Shown here piece after piece: positions 5,038-12,501 of a stretch of DNA of 33,041 nucleotides. The stretch is from contig NZ_CACWVY010000026.1 in the NCBI RefSeq assembly GCF_902764455.1, forward strand, positions 1-33,041, given 5' to 3'. Source of the DNA: an uncultured Methanobrevibacter sp. GTDB lineage: Archaea > Methanobacteriota > Methanobacteria > Methanobacteriales > Methanobacteriaceae. Position numbers and translations under genes: made by a program. Position 1 is the first letter of the stretch; the number at the start of each line of letters is the position of its first letter. The notes under the pieces were generated by a model. That model was not told the origin of the DNA. It saw only the letters and a program-made list of their open reading frames with translations, and searched no databases.

Positions 5038-6321
5038 GTGAAAGCGATTATATTAAGTGCCGGTGAAGGTTCTAGAATGAGGCCATTAACACTTACAAAG
5101 CCTAAAACCATGTTGCCGGTAGCCGGAAAACCAATTATTCAGTATAATATTGAATCATTAAGAGACAATGGCATTAAGGATATTTTATTGGTTGTCCGTT
5201 ATAAAGAAGAAATGGTCAGATCATACTTTGGAGACGGCAGTGAATTTGGTGTAAACATTACTTATGAAACTCAGCAGGATTTCCTGGGTACTGCAAATGC
5301 TATTTCTTATGGAAAGAATTTTATTGATGACAGTCTTGTTGTTTTAAATGGAGATATCATTTTGGACAATGAAATCATCAATGAAATCATCAAAAAGTAC
5401 AATTATCTTAAACCTGACACACTGATGGTTTTGACTGAAGTGGAAGACCCTTCCGCTTTTGGTGTTGTTGAAATAGAGGACGGCAACATTAAAAAAATTG
5501 TTGAAAAGCCGAAAAAAGAAGAGGCACCGAGCAACCTTGTCAATGCAGGTATCTATATATTCAACAAAGACATTTTTGATAAAATTGATAAAACAGAAAT
5601 TTCCGAACGTGGAGAATATGAAATTACTGATTCAGTAACTTTACAGATTGCTGACGGCAAAAAGGTAATAGGACATAAAACCAACAAGGATTGGATTGAT
5701 GTTGGTAGGCCATGGGAGCTGATTGAAGTTAATGAAGAGCTTATCAGCAATTTAAAAACTGAAATAAAAGGTACAATTGAAGAAGGAGCACATATCCACG
5801 GCGAAGTCTTTTTGGATGAAGACAGCATAATCCGTGCGGGAGTATATATTGAAGGCAATGTCTATATCGGAAAACACTGTGATATAGGTCCTAACTCATA
5901 TATTCGTGGAAATTCATACTTCGGGGACAATGTTCAGGTGGGAAATGCTGTTGAAATCAAAAACTCAATTGTCATGGAAAATACCAATGTAAGTCACTTG
6001 AGTTATGTTGGAGACTCTGTAATAGGATCCAACTGTAATATTGCAGCAGGAACCAACATCGCAAACCTGCGTTTCGACAACAAACCTGTAAAAACAAAAA
6101 TCAAGGATGCGATGATTGACAGTGGAAGACGTAAACTCGGTTCCATCATTGGGGATTCAGTAAAAACAGGAATCAACTCCAGTTTTTCACCTGGTGTTAA
6201 AGTGGGTCACAATTCCACTATAGGTTCAGGGGTTTTGTTGTATGATGATGTACCCTCTGATACTCGTGTATTAGTAAAACAAAATCATATTATACAAGAT
6301 AAAAATAAGAAAAAAGAATAA
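5038..6321 (+). CDS. glmU: Bifunctional sugar-1-phosphate nucleotidylyltransferase/acetyltransferase (archaeal GlmU)
   Basis: This 427-residue protein would acetylate glucosamine-1-phosphate and couple it to UTP, giving UDP-GlcNAc. The N-terminal half (about 1-230) is a nucleotidyltransferase fold with LSAGEGSRMRPLT and the pyrimidine/metal-site Asp in VVLNGDIILD. The C-terminal half (about 245-420) is a left-handed beta-helix of hexapeptide repeats (IIRAGVYIEGNVYIG). His320 in NVSHLSYVGDSVIG matches the catalytic His region of bacterial GlmU, which supports the acetyltransferase activity. The GTG start has GGGGAT seven bases upstream. It is first in a five-gene operon and 11 bases from the next gene. 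It could accept other sugar phosphates, as archaeal relatives do. Confidence 0.88.
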   Translation: MKAIILSAGEGSRMRPLTLTKPKTMLPVAGKPIIQYNIESLRDNGIKDILLVVRYKEEMVRSYFGDGSEFGVNITYETQQDFLGTANAISYGKNFIDDSLVVLNGDIILDNEIINEIIKKYNYLKPDTLMVLTEVEDPSAFGVVEIEDGNIKKIVEKPKKEEAPSNLVNAGIYIFNKDIFDKIDKTEISERGEYEITDSVTLQIADGKKVIGHKTNKDWIDVGRPWELIEVNEELISNLKTEIKGTIEEGAHIHGEVFLDEDSIIRAGVYIEGNVYIGKHCDIGPNSYIRGNSYFGDNVQVGNAVEIKNSIVMENTNVSHLSYVGDSVIGSNCNIAAGTNIANLRFDNKPVKTKIKDAMIDSGRRKLGSIIGDSVKTGINSSFSPGVKVGHNSTIGSGVLLYDDVPSDTRVLVKQNHIIQDKNKKKE

Positions 6322-6332
6322 AAGGCGATATT

Positions 6333-6815
6333 ATGGAAAATAATAAAGACTCTATTGTAATATGCCCAGGCGCACAGGTAATAGGAAATGTTGAACTTGG
6401 AGAAGACGTATCTATATGGCACGGTGCTGTTTTAAGAGGAGATACTGACTCCATAACTGTTGGAAACAATTCAAATGTTCAGGACAACTGTGTAGTTCAC
6501 TGTACCAAAGGGTTTCCGGTAGTAATCGGTGATAACGTTTCTGTAGGTCATGGCGCTGTAGTTCATGGTTGTAAGCTGGATGACAATGTTCTGATTGGAA
6601 TGAATGCAACAGTTTTAAATGGTGCACATATTTCAAAAAATTCAATTGTAGGTGCAGGAGCTGTTGTCAGTGAAGGTAAGGAATTTCCAGAAGGCAGTTT
6701 GATTTTAGGAGTTCCCGCCCGTGCAGTTAAGGAACTCTCAGAAGAACAAATAGAACACATCCAAAAGAATGCTGACAATTATGTTAAACTTTCCAAACAG
6801 TATAAGGAAGATTAA
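6333..6815 (+). CDS. Gamma-carbonic-anhydrase-like hexapeptide protein
   Basis: A 160-residue left-handed beta-helix protein of the gamma carbonic anhydrase/YrdA/PaaY family. The three zinc-ligand histidines are present: His56 (NCVVHC), His73 and His78 ([10 protein letters not shown]), with the family spacing of five between the last two. [12 protein letters not shown] and a C-terminal helix close the protein. Many relatives bind metal without proven carbonic anhydrase activity, so CO2 hydration is only possible. The Cam-specific acidic loop is absent. The start is ATG 6333 with AAAGGCGAT upstream, 11 bases after glmU. Its stop overlaps the hisC start (TAATG). Adjacency to another hexapeptide enzyme hints that an acyltransferase-like role cannot be excluded. 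Confidence 0.82.
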
Positions 6816-7918
6816 TGATGAAAGCAAGAAAGATTGTAGATGAAATGGATTCATATGTTCCAGGCAGGTCTCAGGGAGAGATTGCCGAGGAATTTGGACT
6901 GAATAAGGATGAAATTATCAAATTGGGATCCAATGAAAATCCATGGGGTCCGTCTCCAAAAGCTATGGAAGCTATTAAAGATGAAATCAAATCAATTAAC
7001 AGATATCCTGAATCTCAGCTTAAGGAGCTTGTAGCTGAAATTGCAAAATATGCCGATGTTGAAGACAATCAGGTTATAATCGGCGGAGACGGTGCTGATG
7101 AAATCATTGACGTGCTTGCAAAAACATTCATTGATGAAGGAGATGAATTCATAGTTCCTCTGCCTTCCTATATGTACTATGAATACCTGCTCCAGCAGTA
7201 CGGAGCTCATCCTGTATATGCAAGATGGGATTTGGATAAAAACGAACTTGACGTGGATTCAATATTTGATGCAATAACTGACAAAACCAAAATGATTTTC
7301 CTGTGCAGTCCAAACAATCCGACAGGTACATTGATTGAAAAAGATATTCTGGCGGATATTGCAGCCAAAAATCCTGAAATACTGATTGTTGTTGATGAAG
7401 CTTACTTTGAATATTCCGAAACAACCAATAAGGATTTAATCAATGAATATGATAACATTTTCATCATCCGTACAATGTCCAAGGTTTTGGGTCTTGCAGG
7501 AATGAGAATAGGATATGGTCTTTCATGTGCTGAGATAATCGAATACATGCACAGAATCAAACCGGTATTTTCACTTACCCGATTGTCATTTGTAGCCGCT
7601 CTAAACACTTTTAGAGACACACAATACATTAAGGATTCAATCGAAAATGGAATTGAATCAAGACAATACCTCTATGATGAACTGTCAAAGATTGATTCAT
7701 TGAATGTATTTCCGTCAAAATCTAATTTTATGTTAATAGGTGTTAAAGACACTGGGTTTACAGCTAGTGAATTGGCATTAGAACTTATGAAAAAAGGTAT
7801 TATCGTAAGAGACTGCACCTCTTTTAAAGGGCTTGATGAATACTGGATAAGAATCAGTATCTGCACTTTAGAAGAGGATAAGAAATTTATAGAAATTATA
7901 AAAGAGGTTTTAAACTAA
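6815..7918 (+). CDS. hisC: Histidinol-phosphate aminotransferase
   Basis: A PLP-dependent class I/II aminotransferase of 367 residues that converts imidazole-acetol phosphate and glutamate to histidinol phosphate. The family motifs [10 protein letters not shown], the PLP-phosphate region [29 protein letters not shown] and the Schiff-base Lys223 in [17 protein letters not shown] are all present; the length is normal. Its ATG overlaps the previous stop (TAATG at 6813-6817), and its own TAA overlaps the next ATG in the same way, so translation is probably coupled. A second ATG at 6818 is an equally possible start. No other histidine genes are nearby. HisC-like enzymes can also transaminate aromatic amino acids. 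Confidence 0.92.
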
Positions 7919-8628
7919 TGTATGTTGGAGGATCTGTAATATCTTCTGTTGAATTTCATGGAAATATGTCCCTGGTTATCTTCATGTCAGGATGTCCTTT
8001 AACTTGCCGGTATTGCCATAATGTTGAACTGCTGGATGATTCAACTGAAAAATCATTTGATGAGATAAAAGGCGAAATTGAATCTTCAGCTGATTTTTTA
8101 GATGCAGTGGTGATTTCCGGAGGCGAACCGTTAATGCAAACTGATGCATTGATTGAAATATTCAGCTATGTTCGTGAAATTGGTCTTAAAACAAAATTGG
8201 ACACAAGCGGAATTTATCCCGATAAAATCAAACAGCTACTTGATTTGAATTTATTGGATTTTGTTTCACTTGATGTTAAAACAACATTTTCAAAATACAG
8301 AAAAATTACAGGTTCCAACGTTGGTTTTCAGGTTAAAAAATCAATGGAACTTATCAATGCGGATGAAAACGTTCATCTGGAAGTAAGAACTACCTATGTT
8401 CCAACATTACATACAAAAAAAGACATTATCAATTTAGTCGATGAAATTGAAGCCGACATTTACACTATTCAACAATTCAGAAATAAAAATGTCCTTGATC
8501 CTGCTTTGGAAAAAGTCGAAGTACCAAATCCACATGATTTAGCACAGCTGGCTCGTGAAGTCAAGCCATATTTCAAAGGCCAGGTTAAAGTCAAGTCAGC
8601 GGAATTCGGAGAACAAGTTATTGAATAA
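7918..8628 (+). CDS. nrdG: Radical SAM activase, anaerobic ribonucleotide reductase activating type
   Basis: A 236-residue radical SAM protein resembling the NrdG2/TIGR02495 group of anaerobic ribonucleoside-triphosphate reductase activating proteins. The cluster-binding motif CPLTCRYC uses Cys26, Cys30 and Cys33. VVISGGEPLMQ follows as the GGEP SAM-binding motif near residue 68, then LKTKLDTSGIYP. The partner reductase NrdD is not in the window, so the target is inferred from the family; a different glycyl-radical enzyme is possible. ATG 7918 overlaps the hisC stop. An unrelated-looking ASCH-TPR gene follows 19 bases later. Confidence 0.8.
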   Translation: MYVGGSVISSVEFHGNMSLVIFMSGCPLTCRYCHNVELLDDSTEKSFDEIKGEIESSADFLDAVVISGGEPLMQTDALIEIFSYVREIGLKTKLDTSGIYPDKIKQLLDLNLLDFVSLDVKTTFSKYRKITGSNVGFQVKKSMELINADENVHLEVRTTYVPTLHTKKDIINLVDEIEADIYTIQQFRNKNVLDPALEKVEVPNPHDLAQLAREVKPYFKGQVKVKSAEFGEQVIE

Positions 8629-8647: not shown

Positions 8648-9784
8648 ATGCCGATTTTGTCATTTTCAAGTAATGATATAGATGTAATTACTGGTAAGAA
8701 AACAAGAACAATACGCAAAGCATGGAAAACTCCGCTTAAAGTTGGTGACAGACTTTACTGTTATTGGAATTTGGTTTCTAAAGAAAAAATGAAAATCTTT
8801 GAAGCTCTGGTAACTGATGTTGAAAACATTCCTTTTGAAGAGATTAAAGATAATGATGAATTGGCCAGAAAGGAAGGTTTTGAAGACTCTTATGACATGT
8901 TAAGGGAATTCAAAAAAATGTATGGTGGTCCGATTAAAGATTCTGAGGAATTTCAGATAATCTATTTTAAAAAACTTCACATTGACGAATGGAAAGGCGA
9001 TAAAATAGATGAAAAGGCAATGATTACCAAAAGGGCAGATATTCTTTTTGACAGCGGCAAGTTCGATAAGTCCACAATGTGCTATGATGCCGCATTAAGG
9101 CTTGACCCTGATGATGTTTATCTTCTTAACAAGCAGGGGGATAACCTCTCAAGGCTGGGAAAATTCGATGAAGCCATCGAATGTTATGACAAGGCTTTGG
9201 AGTTAGAACCTGATAACGAATATATTCTAAACAATAAAGCTATTGCACTTTTGAATGCCGGAAGAATTGATGAAGCATATAAGGCAAGTACCATTGCCTA
9301 CAATTACCGGCCGAGCAGTCCTATTGTTCTGTATTGGAGAGGATTTATTTTAGAAATGCTTGGAAGATATGATGCTGCATTGAGGGTTTATGACAAGCTC
9401 ATTGTAATCGATGGTGAAAATCCGGAAGTGTGGAATGCAAGAGGCAATCTGTTGACTGATATGGGGCATCTGGAAGAAGCTATTGAATCATTTGATAAGG
9501 CTGTTGAAGTATGTTTGGATGATTCGGAGATGGATGCAAGTGCAATCAATAGAATGGGTAATGCTTATATTGATTTGGGCAGATTTGATGATGCATTGGA
9601 ATGTTTTAATAAAGCAATATCATTGGAGCAATACAATATTGATTTTTTACTTAACAAAGGAGTTGTCCTGATGGAATTGGGCAAGTTTGAAGAGGCTGTT
9701 GATAGTTTCAACAAAGTATTGCTTAGAAATCCTGATAATGAGGATGCATTTTTCTTAAAAGAAGAGTGTTTGGAAAACTTTTAA
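8648..9784 (+). CDS. ASCH domain fused to seven TPR repeats
   Basis: A 378-residue protein with two parts. Residues about 1-115 look like an ASCH domain, a beta-barrel thought to bind RNA: ILSFSSNDIDVITGKKTRT, then PLKVGDRLYCYW and a FEALVTDV strand. Residues about 120-375 are seven consecutive 34-residue TPR repeats with the usual G-F-D/E-A-I/L-x-C/S-Y/F-D/N-K-A pattern, for example LGKFDEAIECYDKALELEP and LGRFDDALECFNKAISLEQ. No signal peptide or membrane segment is visible, so it is cytosolic. A strong AAGGAGG (8635-8641) precedes ATG 8648. It ends the glmU-nrdG operon. The function is unknown; an RNA- or nucleotide-sensing head on a protein-binding scaffold is inferred only from the domains. 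Confidence 0.8.
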   Translation: MPILSFSSNDIDVITGKKTRTIRKAWKTPLKVGDRLYCYWNLVSKEKMKIFEALVTDVENIPFEEIKDNDELARKEGFEDSYDMLREFKKMYGGPIKDSEEFQIIYFKKLHIDEWKGDKIDEKAMITKRADILFDSGKFDKSTMCYDAALRLDPDDVYLLNKQGDNLSRLGKFDEAIECYDKALELEPDNEYILNNKAIALLNAGRIDEAYKASTIAYNYRPSSPIVLYWRGFILEMLGRYDAALRVYDKLIVIDGENPEVWNARGNLLTDMGHLEEAIESFDKAVEVCLDDSEMDASAINRMGNAYIDLGRFDDALECFNKAISLEQYNIDFLLNKGVVLMELGKFEEAVDSFNKVLLRNPDNEDAFFLKEECLENF

Positions 9785-9955: not shown

Positions 9956-11320
9956 TTATTTTTTGTATTTTTTAATTAAACTGATTCCCCAATTGGTCAT
10001 CTCATCTGCTTTTTCCTGTGAATCTGACTCTGCAAAGCATCTGAAGATTGGTTCAGTTCCGGATGGTCTGACAATTACCCAGCCATCTTCCTTGAGGATT
10101 TTAACACCGTCTGTTAAGTCTAACTCAAAGTCAGTAGTGCTTTTGATTTCATCAGCAATACTGTTCATGACAAATTCCTTTTCATCGTCAGGACATTCTA
10201 TTTTCATTTTGCTTGAGTAATAAACAGGAAGCTCTGAAACCAGCTCTGATAAAGGCTTTTTCTCTTTAGCAACGATTTCCAGGATTTTAGCAACAGTCAT
10301 TACTGCATCTCTTCCATAGACAAAGTCCGGAAATATTAATCCTCCGTTTTCTTCTCCTCCAAAGAGCCCATCTTCATCTTTAAGTTTACGGGCAACAAGC
10401 AAATCTCCAACAGCAGTGGCAATTACTTCGCCGTTGTATTCTTCTGCAATATCATAAATGGCTTGGGAAGTTGCAACTGTTGTAACAACGATTCCTCCAT
10501 CGTTTTCTTTCAGCATTTGCTTTTCAACAAGTGTGAAAGTTTTGTCTCCTAAAACGAAATTTCCTTTCTCGTCAATACATATTGTTCTGTCTGCATCACC
10601 GTCGTGTGCAAGACCGATATCTGCACCCAATTCCTTAACGACACTGATTAACTCCTGAAGATTATCTTCAATTGGTTCAGGGTCACGACCTGGGAAAAAT
10701 CCGTCTGCCTGTGCATTTAAGGTAGTAACTTCACAACCGAGTTTTCTGATTAGATATGGTGCTGTAAAGCATCCTGCTCCGCTTCCGCAGTCAACAACAA
10801 CTTTAAGTTTAGCATCACGAATAGCTTCAGCATCTACCTTGGAGATTGCTTCGTCAACATATTCGTCGATAATCTTGTCGTTGTGGTAGATTTGACCTAT
10901 TTCGGACCAGTGTGCTCTTTTAGGTTCTTCATCAAAGTATAATTTTTCAATTGCAATGTCCATTTCATCAGGAATTCCAATACCAAATTCATCTAAAAAT
11001 TTAAGTCCGTTATATTTTGGAGGGTTGTGTGAAGCTGTAATCATTACTCCTCCATCATAATACTTGCGAACTGCATATTGGACGCCTGGTGTAGGTAAGA
11101 TTCCTAAATCCACTACGTCGCATCCGCTTGATAAAAGTCCAGCTTTAACTGCTTCTTTTAGCATTATTGTTGATGTTCTTGGGTCTCCTCCAACAGCTAC
11201 GGTTCCTTGAATCTGTGTACCATAACAGGCTGCGAGTCTTGATGCAAACTCAGGAGTTAAAACATCATTTGCAGTTCTCCTAACTCCGAAAGTTCCAAAT
11301 AATCGTTTTTTATCAGACAT
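9956..11320 (-). CDS. Second phosphohexomutase, GlmM/phosphomannomutase type
   Basis: A 454-residue alpha-D-phosphohexomutase paralogous to the protein at 2559-3896. The active-site loops are TASHNPPKYNGLKF with phosphoserine Ser97, DGDADRTICIDEKG for the metal, GGEENGGLIFPDF as the sugar loop, and RPSGTEPIFRC at the C-terminus. The sugar loop differs from the other copy, which suggests another substrate such as glucose, mannose or galactosamine phosphate. It is often annotated GlmM in methanogens. The ATG at 11320 has AGGAAAT upstream on the minus strand. It lies downstream of the OB-fold gene, 61 bases away. It may supply another UDP-sugar for wall polymers, but that is inference. Confidence 0.85.
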   Translation of the reverse strand: MSDKKRLFGTFGVRRTANDVLTPEFASRLAACYGTQIQGTVAVGGDPRTSTIMLKEAVKAGLLSSGCDVVDLGILPTPGVQYAVRKYYDGGVMITASHNPPKYNGLKFLDEFGIGIPDEMDIAIEKLYFDEEPKRAHWSEIGQIYHNDKIIDEYVDEAISKVDAEAIRDAKLKVVVDCGSGAGCFTAPYLIRKLGCEVTTLNAQADGFFPGRDPEPIEDNLQELISVVKELGADIGLAHDGDADRTICIDEKGNFVLGDKTFTLVEKQMLKENDGGIVVTTVATSQAIYDIAEEYNGEVIATAVGDLLVARKLKDEDGLFGGEENGGLIFPDFVYGRDAVMTVAKILEIVAKEKKPLSELVSELPVYYSSKMKIECPDDEKEFVMNSIADEIKSTTDFELDLTDGVKILKEDGWVIVRPSGTEPIFRCFAESDSQEKADEMTNWGISLIKKYKK

Positions 11321-11381: not shown

Positions 11382-11783
11382 TCATTTATTAACAATTTTC
11401 AAGCTGTCTCCGCTCGACAATATCATCTCCAAATCAGAATTATATTCAGTAATCTTGCCTGTAACCTCTACTTTTTTGCCTTTAAAGTCGTTAATATCAA
11501 TATTATTCGATTGAATTTCTGCAAGCTGATTTTCAAATATTATCAGAGGCATTTGGCCGGTGCCGTCATTTATAGTTAAAAAATAGCTGCTTTTTGATTT
11601 TGAAGATGCGATGTCAGCCACCACACATTCAATATTGACTTCTTCATCTATCATTCCACGGTCTATGTCCTTAATTTTCACTTTTTTAACTTCAATTGTC
11701 GGAGTAAAGATTAGAAGACCGATAATTCCGATAAGTGAAGTTATCAAAGCTATTCTTAAAAGTTTGTCGTCTGTAATTTCCAT
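11382..11783 (-). CDS. Membrane-anchored OB-fold protein
   Basis: A 133-residue protein with an N-terminal membrane segment (residues about 9-27, ALITSLIGIIGLLIF) followed by an OB-fold of the nucleic-acid-binding tRNA_anti type at residues about 35-130. The recognisable strands are NIECVVADIASSKSKSSYF, FLTINDGTGQMPLIIFE, KKVEVTGKITEYNSDLEMIL. The short positive patch and the topology would put the OB domain either outside or inside the cell; the sequence does not settle this. No partner is evident, and a weak ribosome binding site precedes ATG 11783. Similar anchored OB domains in methanogens are uncharacterised. Confidence 0.7.
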   Translation of the reverse strand: MEITDDKLLRIALITSLIGIIGLLIFTPTIEVKKVKIKDIDRGMIDEEVNIECVVADIASSKSKSSYFLTINDGTGQMPLIIFENQLAEIQSNNIDINDFKGKKVEVTGKITEYNSDLEMILSSGDSLKIVNK

Positions 11784-11862: not shown

Positions 11863-12501
11863 ATGATTATGTTTGAAAATCTTTCAAAAACTGAATTGTA
11901 TGCAATGCTGTGCGGTGTTTTTACGGCATGTCTGATTATCTCAAACATCATTGCAGGTAAAACATTTGATTTTTTCTCGTTTACCTTGCCTTGCGGTGTT
12001 GTAATATTTCCAGTAATCTATATTGTTAATGACGTTTTGGCGGAAGTTTACGGCTATGAAAAAGCAAGAAAAGTAATTCTTTTAGGATTTTTAATGAATC
12101 TTGTAGCTGTAATCTGTTATAATATTACAATAATGCTTCCTGCTCCAGTATTTTTTGAAAATTCGGATGCATACAGTATTGTTCTTGGATCCACTTTCAG
12201 ATTATTGCTTGCCAGTTTTGCTGCTTATCTGGTGGGGTCTCTTGTAAATGCTAAGATGATGGTGATTTTGAAAAAGTGGAATGAAGAAAAGCTATTCGTA
12301 AGATGTATAGTTTCAACACTCTTCGGTGAAGGACTGGATGCAATAATATTTATTTTCATTGGATTTTTTGGAACAATGCCTCTGGAAGCATTGCTGGTGA
12401 TGATTTTGGTCCAGGCATTATTTAAAACAATATATGAAATTATTGTCTATCCATTAACTAAGATTGTTATAACTAAAGTTAAAGGATTGCCTGAAATTTA
12501 A
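11863..12501 (+). CDS. Queuosine precursor transporter, YhhQ/VUT family
   Basis: A 212-residue integral membrane protein of the YhhQ (DUF165, COG1738) family, which imports the 7-deazaguanine precursors preQ0/preQ1 in bacteria. About six hydrophobic segments are visible. The family signatures are ISNIIAGKTFDFF near residues 27-39, PVIYIVNDVLAEVYGYEKAR at 50-70, and STLFGEGLDAIIFIFIGFFG near 150. In an archaeon the imported base would feed archaeosine rather than queuosine. An ArcS-like gene at 27051-27959 makes that link plausible, though it is distant. ATG 11863 is preferred (TTGGAAA upstream), with ATG 11869 as alternative. Its stop overlaps the convergent ligase gene by four bases. Confidence 0.85.
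   Translation: MIMFENLSKTELYAMLCGVFTACLIISNIIAGKTFDFFSFTLPCGVVIFPVIYIVNDVLAEVYGYEKARKVILLGFLMNLVAVICYNITIMLPAPVFFENSDAYSIVLGSTFRLLLASFAAYLVGSLVNAKMMVILKKWNEEKLFVRCIVSTLFGEGLDAIIFIFIGFFGTMPLEALLVMILVQALFKTIYEIIVYPLTKIVITKVKGLPEI

Follow-up and report, generated by a model that had tools for sequence, protein, structure and literature searches.

A core ASCH-TPR fusion protein of Methanobacteriales encoded beside an NrdG2-type radical-SAM gene

The window, by which we mean the whole stretch of 33,041 nucleotides of Methanobrevibacter DNA that was analyzed (contig G000:C26, where G000 is the genome of the window), carries a gene for a protein that joins an ASCH domain to a TPR array. In this window the gene order is glmU-type, gamma-carbonic-anhydrase-like (gCA), hisC, NrdG2-type radical SAM and ASCH-TPR, followed by the convergent glmM (Table 1). 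Beside glmM lies a gene for a small, N-terminally hydrophobic OB-fold protein (11382-11783, minus strand), which diverges much faster than its neighbor (27-85% identity vs 68-96% for GlmM). Between this gene and a DNA ligase gene there is a predicted membrane protein, putatively transporter-like (11863-12501), which is present at this spot in some Methanobrevibacter and was undetected in others.

Table 1. Genes of the cluster and domains of the ASCH-TPR protein, in window coordinates.
Feature	Position	Strand	Remarks
Archaeal GlmU-type bifunctional sugar-1-phosphate nucleotidylyltransferase/acetyltransferase, cluster neighbor	5038..6321	+	TIGR03992
Hexapeptide-repeat protein, gamma-carbonic-anhydrase-like (gCA), cluster neighbor	6333..6815	+	
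hisC, histidinol-phosphate aminotransferase	6815..7918	+	TIGR01141; inverted in Methanosphaera
NrdG2-type radical-SAM activase	7918..8628	+	19 bp before ASCH-TPR start; TIGR02495
ASCH-TPR fusion gene	8648..9784	+	378 aa from an ATG start; AAGGAGGAG ribosome site shortly before it
ASCH (PUA-like) domain, residues 1-115	8648..8992	+	Pfam PF04266; Foldseek to YqfB/ZmASCH
Seven TPR helix pairs, residues 122-360	9011..9727	+	Pfam TPR families; AlphaFold2 helices
Conserved capping helix, residues 365-378, DAxxLxEECLENL-type end	9740..9781	+	Alignment; AlphaFold2
Archaeal GlmM, convergent downstream gene bounding the cluster	9956..11320	-	TIGR03990

The sequence-only reading of this DNA had described the gene product as an ASCH domain fused to seven TPR repeats, and this is borne out by Pfam, AlphaFold2 and Foldseek. 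In the full protein the Pfam family PF04266 matches residues 12-109 with 32.1 bits and the isolated N-terminus scores 35.6 bits, against a curated cut-off of 21.2 bits; the same family is matched by 41/41 orthologs, and the TPR families reach up to 173 bits (TPR_1). The AlphaFold2 model of the full-length protein, built with 35 orthologs, has a mean pLDDT of 89.9 and shows a PUA-like β/α domain (residues 1-115), seven tandem helix pairs of the 34-residue TPR kind (122-152, 157-186, 191-220, 225-255, 259-287, 297-326 and 331-360) and a capping helix (365-377), while the ASCH domain modeled in isolation has a pLDDT of 83. The comparison of residues 1-120 with known ASCH folds, which the same reading had proposed, returned Escherichia coli YqfB as the best structural match in Foldseek (9KYF, E 2.5e-5, prob 1.00) and ZmASCH (5GUS) as the second, and the modeled N-terminus has the PUA-like ASCH fold of both. 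As a single sequence the ASCH domain gave no useful match in the PDB, and its best PDB profile match, again YqfB, is weak (E 0.036).

The same fusion is found in 145 of the 152 genomes of the class Methanobacteria, almost always in a single copy, and its ASCH domain in 133/139 genomes of the family; relatives with 94% identical ASCH domains come from Methanobrevibacter MAGs. The orthologs have an open frame of ~378-412 codons and a protein of 376-382 amino acids with the same seven repeats, which makes this a fixed architecture; shorter frames are few and mostly located where a contig ends. Since the open reading and its length are conserved in ~95 loci, the ORF is not a product of chance. ASCH-TPR is thus no one-off but a core gene that Methanobacteriales inherit vertically. 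This fusion of two known kinds of domain is real, old and lineage-specific, and it is undescribed in the open-access literature. There, with most subscription journals outside the scope of the search, we found no article in which ASCH and TPR are joined in methanogens and no described function for this architecture, as had been supposed.

Seven of the class genomes are without the gene. In three of them (G050, G133 and G137) hisC is missing too, so these absences are likely assembly gaps, and co-loss of ASCH-TPR together with the radical-SAM gene was rejected for the same reason; three others (G062, G104 and G131) are 68-84% complete. The absence from G139, a complete genome of 1,243,342 bp that we take to be Methanothermus-like and that keeps hisC and the NrdG2-type radical-SAM gene, looks real. 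Outside the class, profile searches gave no ASCH frame of fusion size in two other archaeal phyla, one searched in 99 genomes (weak matches of 182-256 aa) and the other in 121 (weak matches of 110-251 aa). In all, the 220 genomes from these two phyla, with ASCH frames of 110-256 aa, therefore show no fusion, and 11 genomes of other archaeal groups gave zero or weak ASCH matches in frames of ≤195 aa.

Several candidates were set aside. A viral origin was rejected, as profiles run against viral contigs brought up no relative. A 35-residue match in Sulfurimonas (L093, E 7e-4) is located inside an unrelated 142-aa ORF and is hence attributed to chance, and a role as a defence system was discarded because PADLOC matches only generic TPR and radical-SAM (viperin-like) entries. 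Other observations concern single genomes. At L129 (G149:C1:1451830-1452956), in a genome of 1,751,377 bp that is presumably Methanothermobacter, the gene is split over two frames near residue 30 while its relatives are intact, which is either a sequencing error or a real frameshift. Two similar copies of the cluster lie on different contigs of one genome bin (L159 and L160; G063:C47 and C91), reflecting mixed strains or a duplication. The only other ASCH protein in G000 (L197:5680-6009, on G000:C14) has 109 aa and a TIRK motif, and its provirus-looking neighbors are terminase-, PCNA- and methylase-like genes. A Methanobrevibacter genome of 1,853,160 bp also has a second ASCH frame, which stands alone and has 119 aa (G042:C1:1702699-1702953; L146 around 5700-5950).

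One question that is raised by the cluster is which of its genes belongs with ASCH-TPR. Where the gene is full-length, it shares its strand with the radical-SAM gene in 96/97 loci, with a median gap of 18 bp and a gap of ≤150 bp in 84/97, although these loci are not independent events because closely related species and some duplicates are included. Methanosphaera has hisC and gCA in inverted orientation and no glmU gene close by, yet radical SAM and ASCH-TPR are still adjacent there; in a few loci the two are 0.3-4.8 kb apart, and in G128 they are unlinked, on different contigs. The near-constant partner of ASCH-TPR is the upstream radical-SAM gene and not HisC. The operon with a radical-SAM activase and HisC that had been read from the sequence thus stands as a same-strand cluster, but HisC is no constant member of it. 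Among four cluster genes in 48 taxa, the partial distance correlation was highest for radical-SAM/ASCH-TPR (r 0.74); with six genes in 25 taxa it was 0.47, no better than the 0.53 of hisC, so the rate correlation gives this pairing weak support.

One possible explanation is that ASCH-TPR binds RNA and serves as an adaptor in translation or in RNA modification or decay, and that its linkage to the radical-SAM gene is only housekeeping co-transcription. Domains of the PUA/ASCH superfamily are generally RNA-associated (PMC7641849), the ASCH domain has invariant lysines and tryptophans, and the glmU, gCA and hisC genes make the cluster functionally mixed. Yet the radical-SAM linkage outlasts the rearrangement of the other neighbors, and the cluster neighbors tested include no RNA-modification gene, which leaves this explanation a doubtful, though serious, one.

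The radical-SAM protein scores 169.7 bits against TIGR02495 (NrdG2), above the cut-off of 131.15 bits, and C26, C30 and C33 of its CxxxCxxC cluster motif are invariant, so that it has both marks of the NrdG2 family. NrdD, found in 94/96 near-complete genomes, is the only visible glycyl-radical enzyme in G000, where no PF01228 protein was found; neither there nor in five other genomes examined does a radical-SAM gene lie beside NrdD. The other small radical-SAM candidate seen in G000 has an FQGEG motif, from which we take it to be QueE-like, and lies beside a QueD-like gene; nothing else that is NrdG-like and of activase size was seen in this genome. With the other candidates eliminated, in a genome-wide search that left out TIGR02491 and TIGR02826, the protein is likely the NrdD activase. 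Such an activase does not require ASCH-TPR, because the complete G139 keeps the one without the other. Another hypothesis is that the radical-SAM protein is an uncharacterised modification enzyme and that ASCH-TPR modulates this different target. The role in NrdD activation indeed comes from family assignment and elimination only, and ASCH-TPR is paired with the radical-SAM gene rather than with nrdD; still, the NrdG2 cut-off is passed and G000 offers neither a second activase-size candidate nor another glycyl-radical enzyme, and we consider this hypothesis improbable.

By mean column entropy the ASCH domain (1.09 bits) and the TPR array (1.16 bits) are about equally conserved, and the cap has 0.84 bits. 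The TPR groove positions 2, 5, 6, 9, 12 and 13 have 0.82 bits, vs 0.84 for structural positions and 1.50 for the others, a comparison made without a control TPR family and in which conservation is generally stronger in helix A. Among the groove residues that never vary are N161, D165, R169, N195, N196, Y229, W230, N305 and N336. For the ASCH pocket the reference is YqfB, the E. coli N4-acetylcytidine amidohydrolase, whose activity requires Lys21, Thr24 and Arg26 and owes much to Glu74: Lys21Ala is inactive and the turnover of Glu74Ala is strongly cut (PMC6972931). The equivalents of its Lys21, Thr24, Arg26, Glu74 and Tyr89 are all present in the window copy as K18, T21, R23, E76 and Y92 (by alignment, with E76 placed manually), and this copy could be active as a YqfB-type hydrolase. 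Across 35 orthologs T21 and R23 are invariant and Y92 is found in 34, but K18 is R in 9 and position 76 is E in 22, L in 7 and D in 6, so that the Lys/Thr/Glu triad plus Arg26 is not conserved as a set. Neither are the equivalents of His70 and Asp27, and the invariant family-specific residues W26, K27, W40, K45 and K49 lie outside the catalytic set. Because the pocket is retained and the triad is not, binding is favored over hydrolysis as the shared function. That ASCH-TPR is an amidohydrolase for N4-acetylcytidine salvage, with a TPR array only for oligomerisation or localisation, is quite improbable given these substitutions, even if YqfB is its best structural and PDB profile match and the window copy has the pocket residues.

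The mechanism that we prefer, at a probability of a little under 40%, is that ASCH-TPR is a core adaptor, with a ligand-binding ASCH domain on a TPR scaffold, that acts with NrdG2/NrdD. The N-terminal ASCH domain would bind RNA or a nucleoside or nucleotide, of which a cytidine-like ligand is the most plausible, and report its presence; YqfB-type hydrolysis would not be its conserved function. The concave groove of the seven-TPR superhelix may hold a conserved partner or peptide. The working partner would be the adjacent NrdG2-type radical-SAM protein, which we infer to activate NrdD, and through it this class III ribonucleotide reductase. By touching either of the two, ASCH-TPR may scaffold or modulate NrdD activation on a nucleotide- or RNA-linked signal. 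Against this adaptor role are the lack of ASCH-TPR in G139, the unlinked genes in G128 and operon neighbors that are otherwise metabolic. The broader proposal of a sensor or adaptor whose ligand is RNA or a nucleotide, made from the sequence before, is probably the best reading of the protein. Its most specific form is a long shot: a non-catalytic ASCH domain sensing cytidine nucleotide or RNA that controls, via the TPR scaffold, radical activation of the anaerobic ribonucleotide reductase lineage-wide. If the sensor reading is true, nucleotide or RNA status would be linked to DNA precursor supply in methanogens.

That nearly all Methanobacteriales keep ASCH-TPR with an unchanged architecture, and almost always as a single copy, indicates that it must do something valuable. 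It is kept in both gut and thermophilic methanogens, yet no function was found for it. To our knowledge very few functions of ASCH domains have been demonstrated, and the near-constant pairing with a radical-SAM activase is a direct, testable lead to an archaeal one.

Of the known systems, TIGR02495 (NrdG2, anaerobic ribonucleotide reductase activating protein) covers the neighboring gene product, assigned by profile alone, while ASCH-TPR lies outside the family definition. The ribonuclease ZmASCH of Zymomonas mobilis (PDB 5GUQ/5GUS) has a cleft with Tyr47, Lys53 and Ser128; it shares the ASCH fold but is a stand-alone protein with 13-14% identity to ASCH-TPR in the structural alignment. YqfB (PDB 1TE7 and 9KYF) is closer in fold, with a TM of 0.72 on the target and 22% identity, and has in common with ASCH-TPR a GKKTxTIR-like motif and the Thr/Arg/Tyr pocket residues. 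It is, however, a 103-aa stand-alone enzyme, whereas ASCH-TPR has the TPR array attached, the family-specific core WKxPL...GDRLYCYWN...SKE and a triad whose Lys and Glu are not conserved in the orthologs. The best Foldseek matches to the full model are consensus TPR proteins and O-GlcNAc transferase (8CHY and 1W3B), with which it shares the TPR superhelix; ASCH-TPR differs from the transferase in having no glycosyltransferase domain and in carrying an ASCH domain at its N-terminus.
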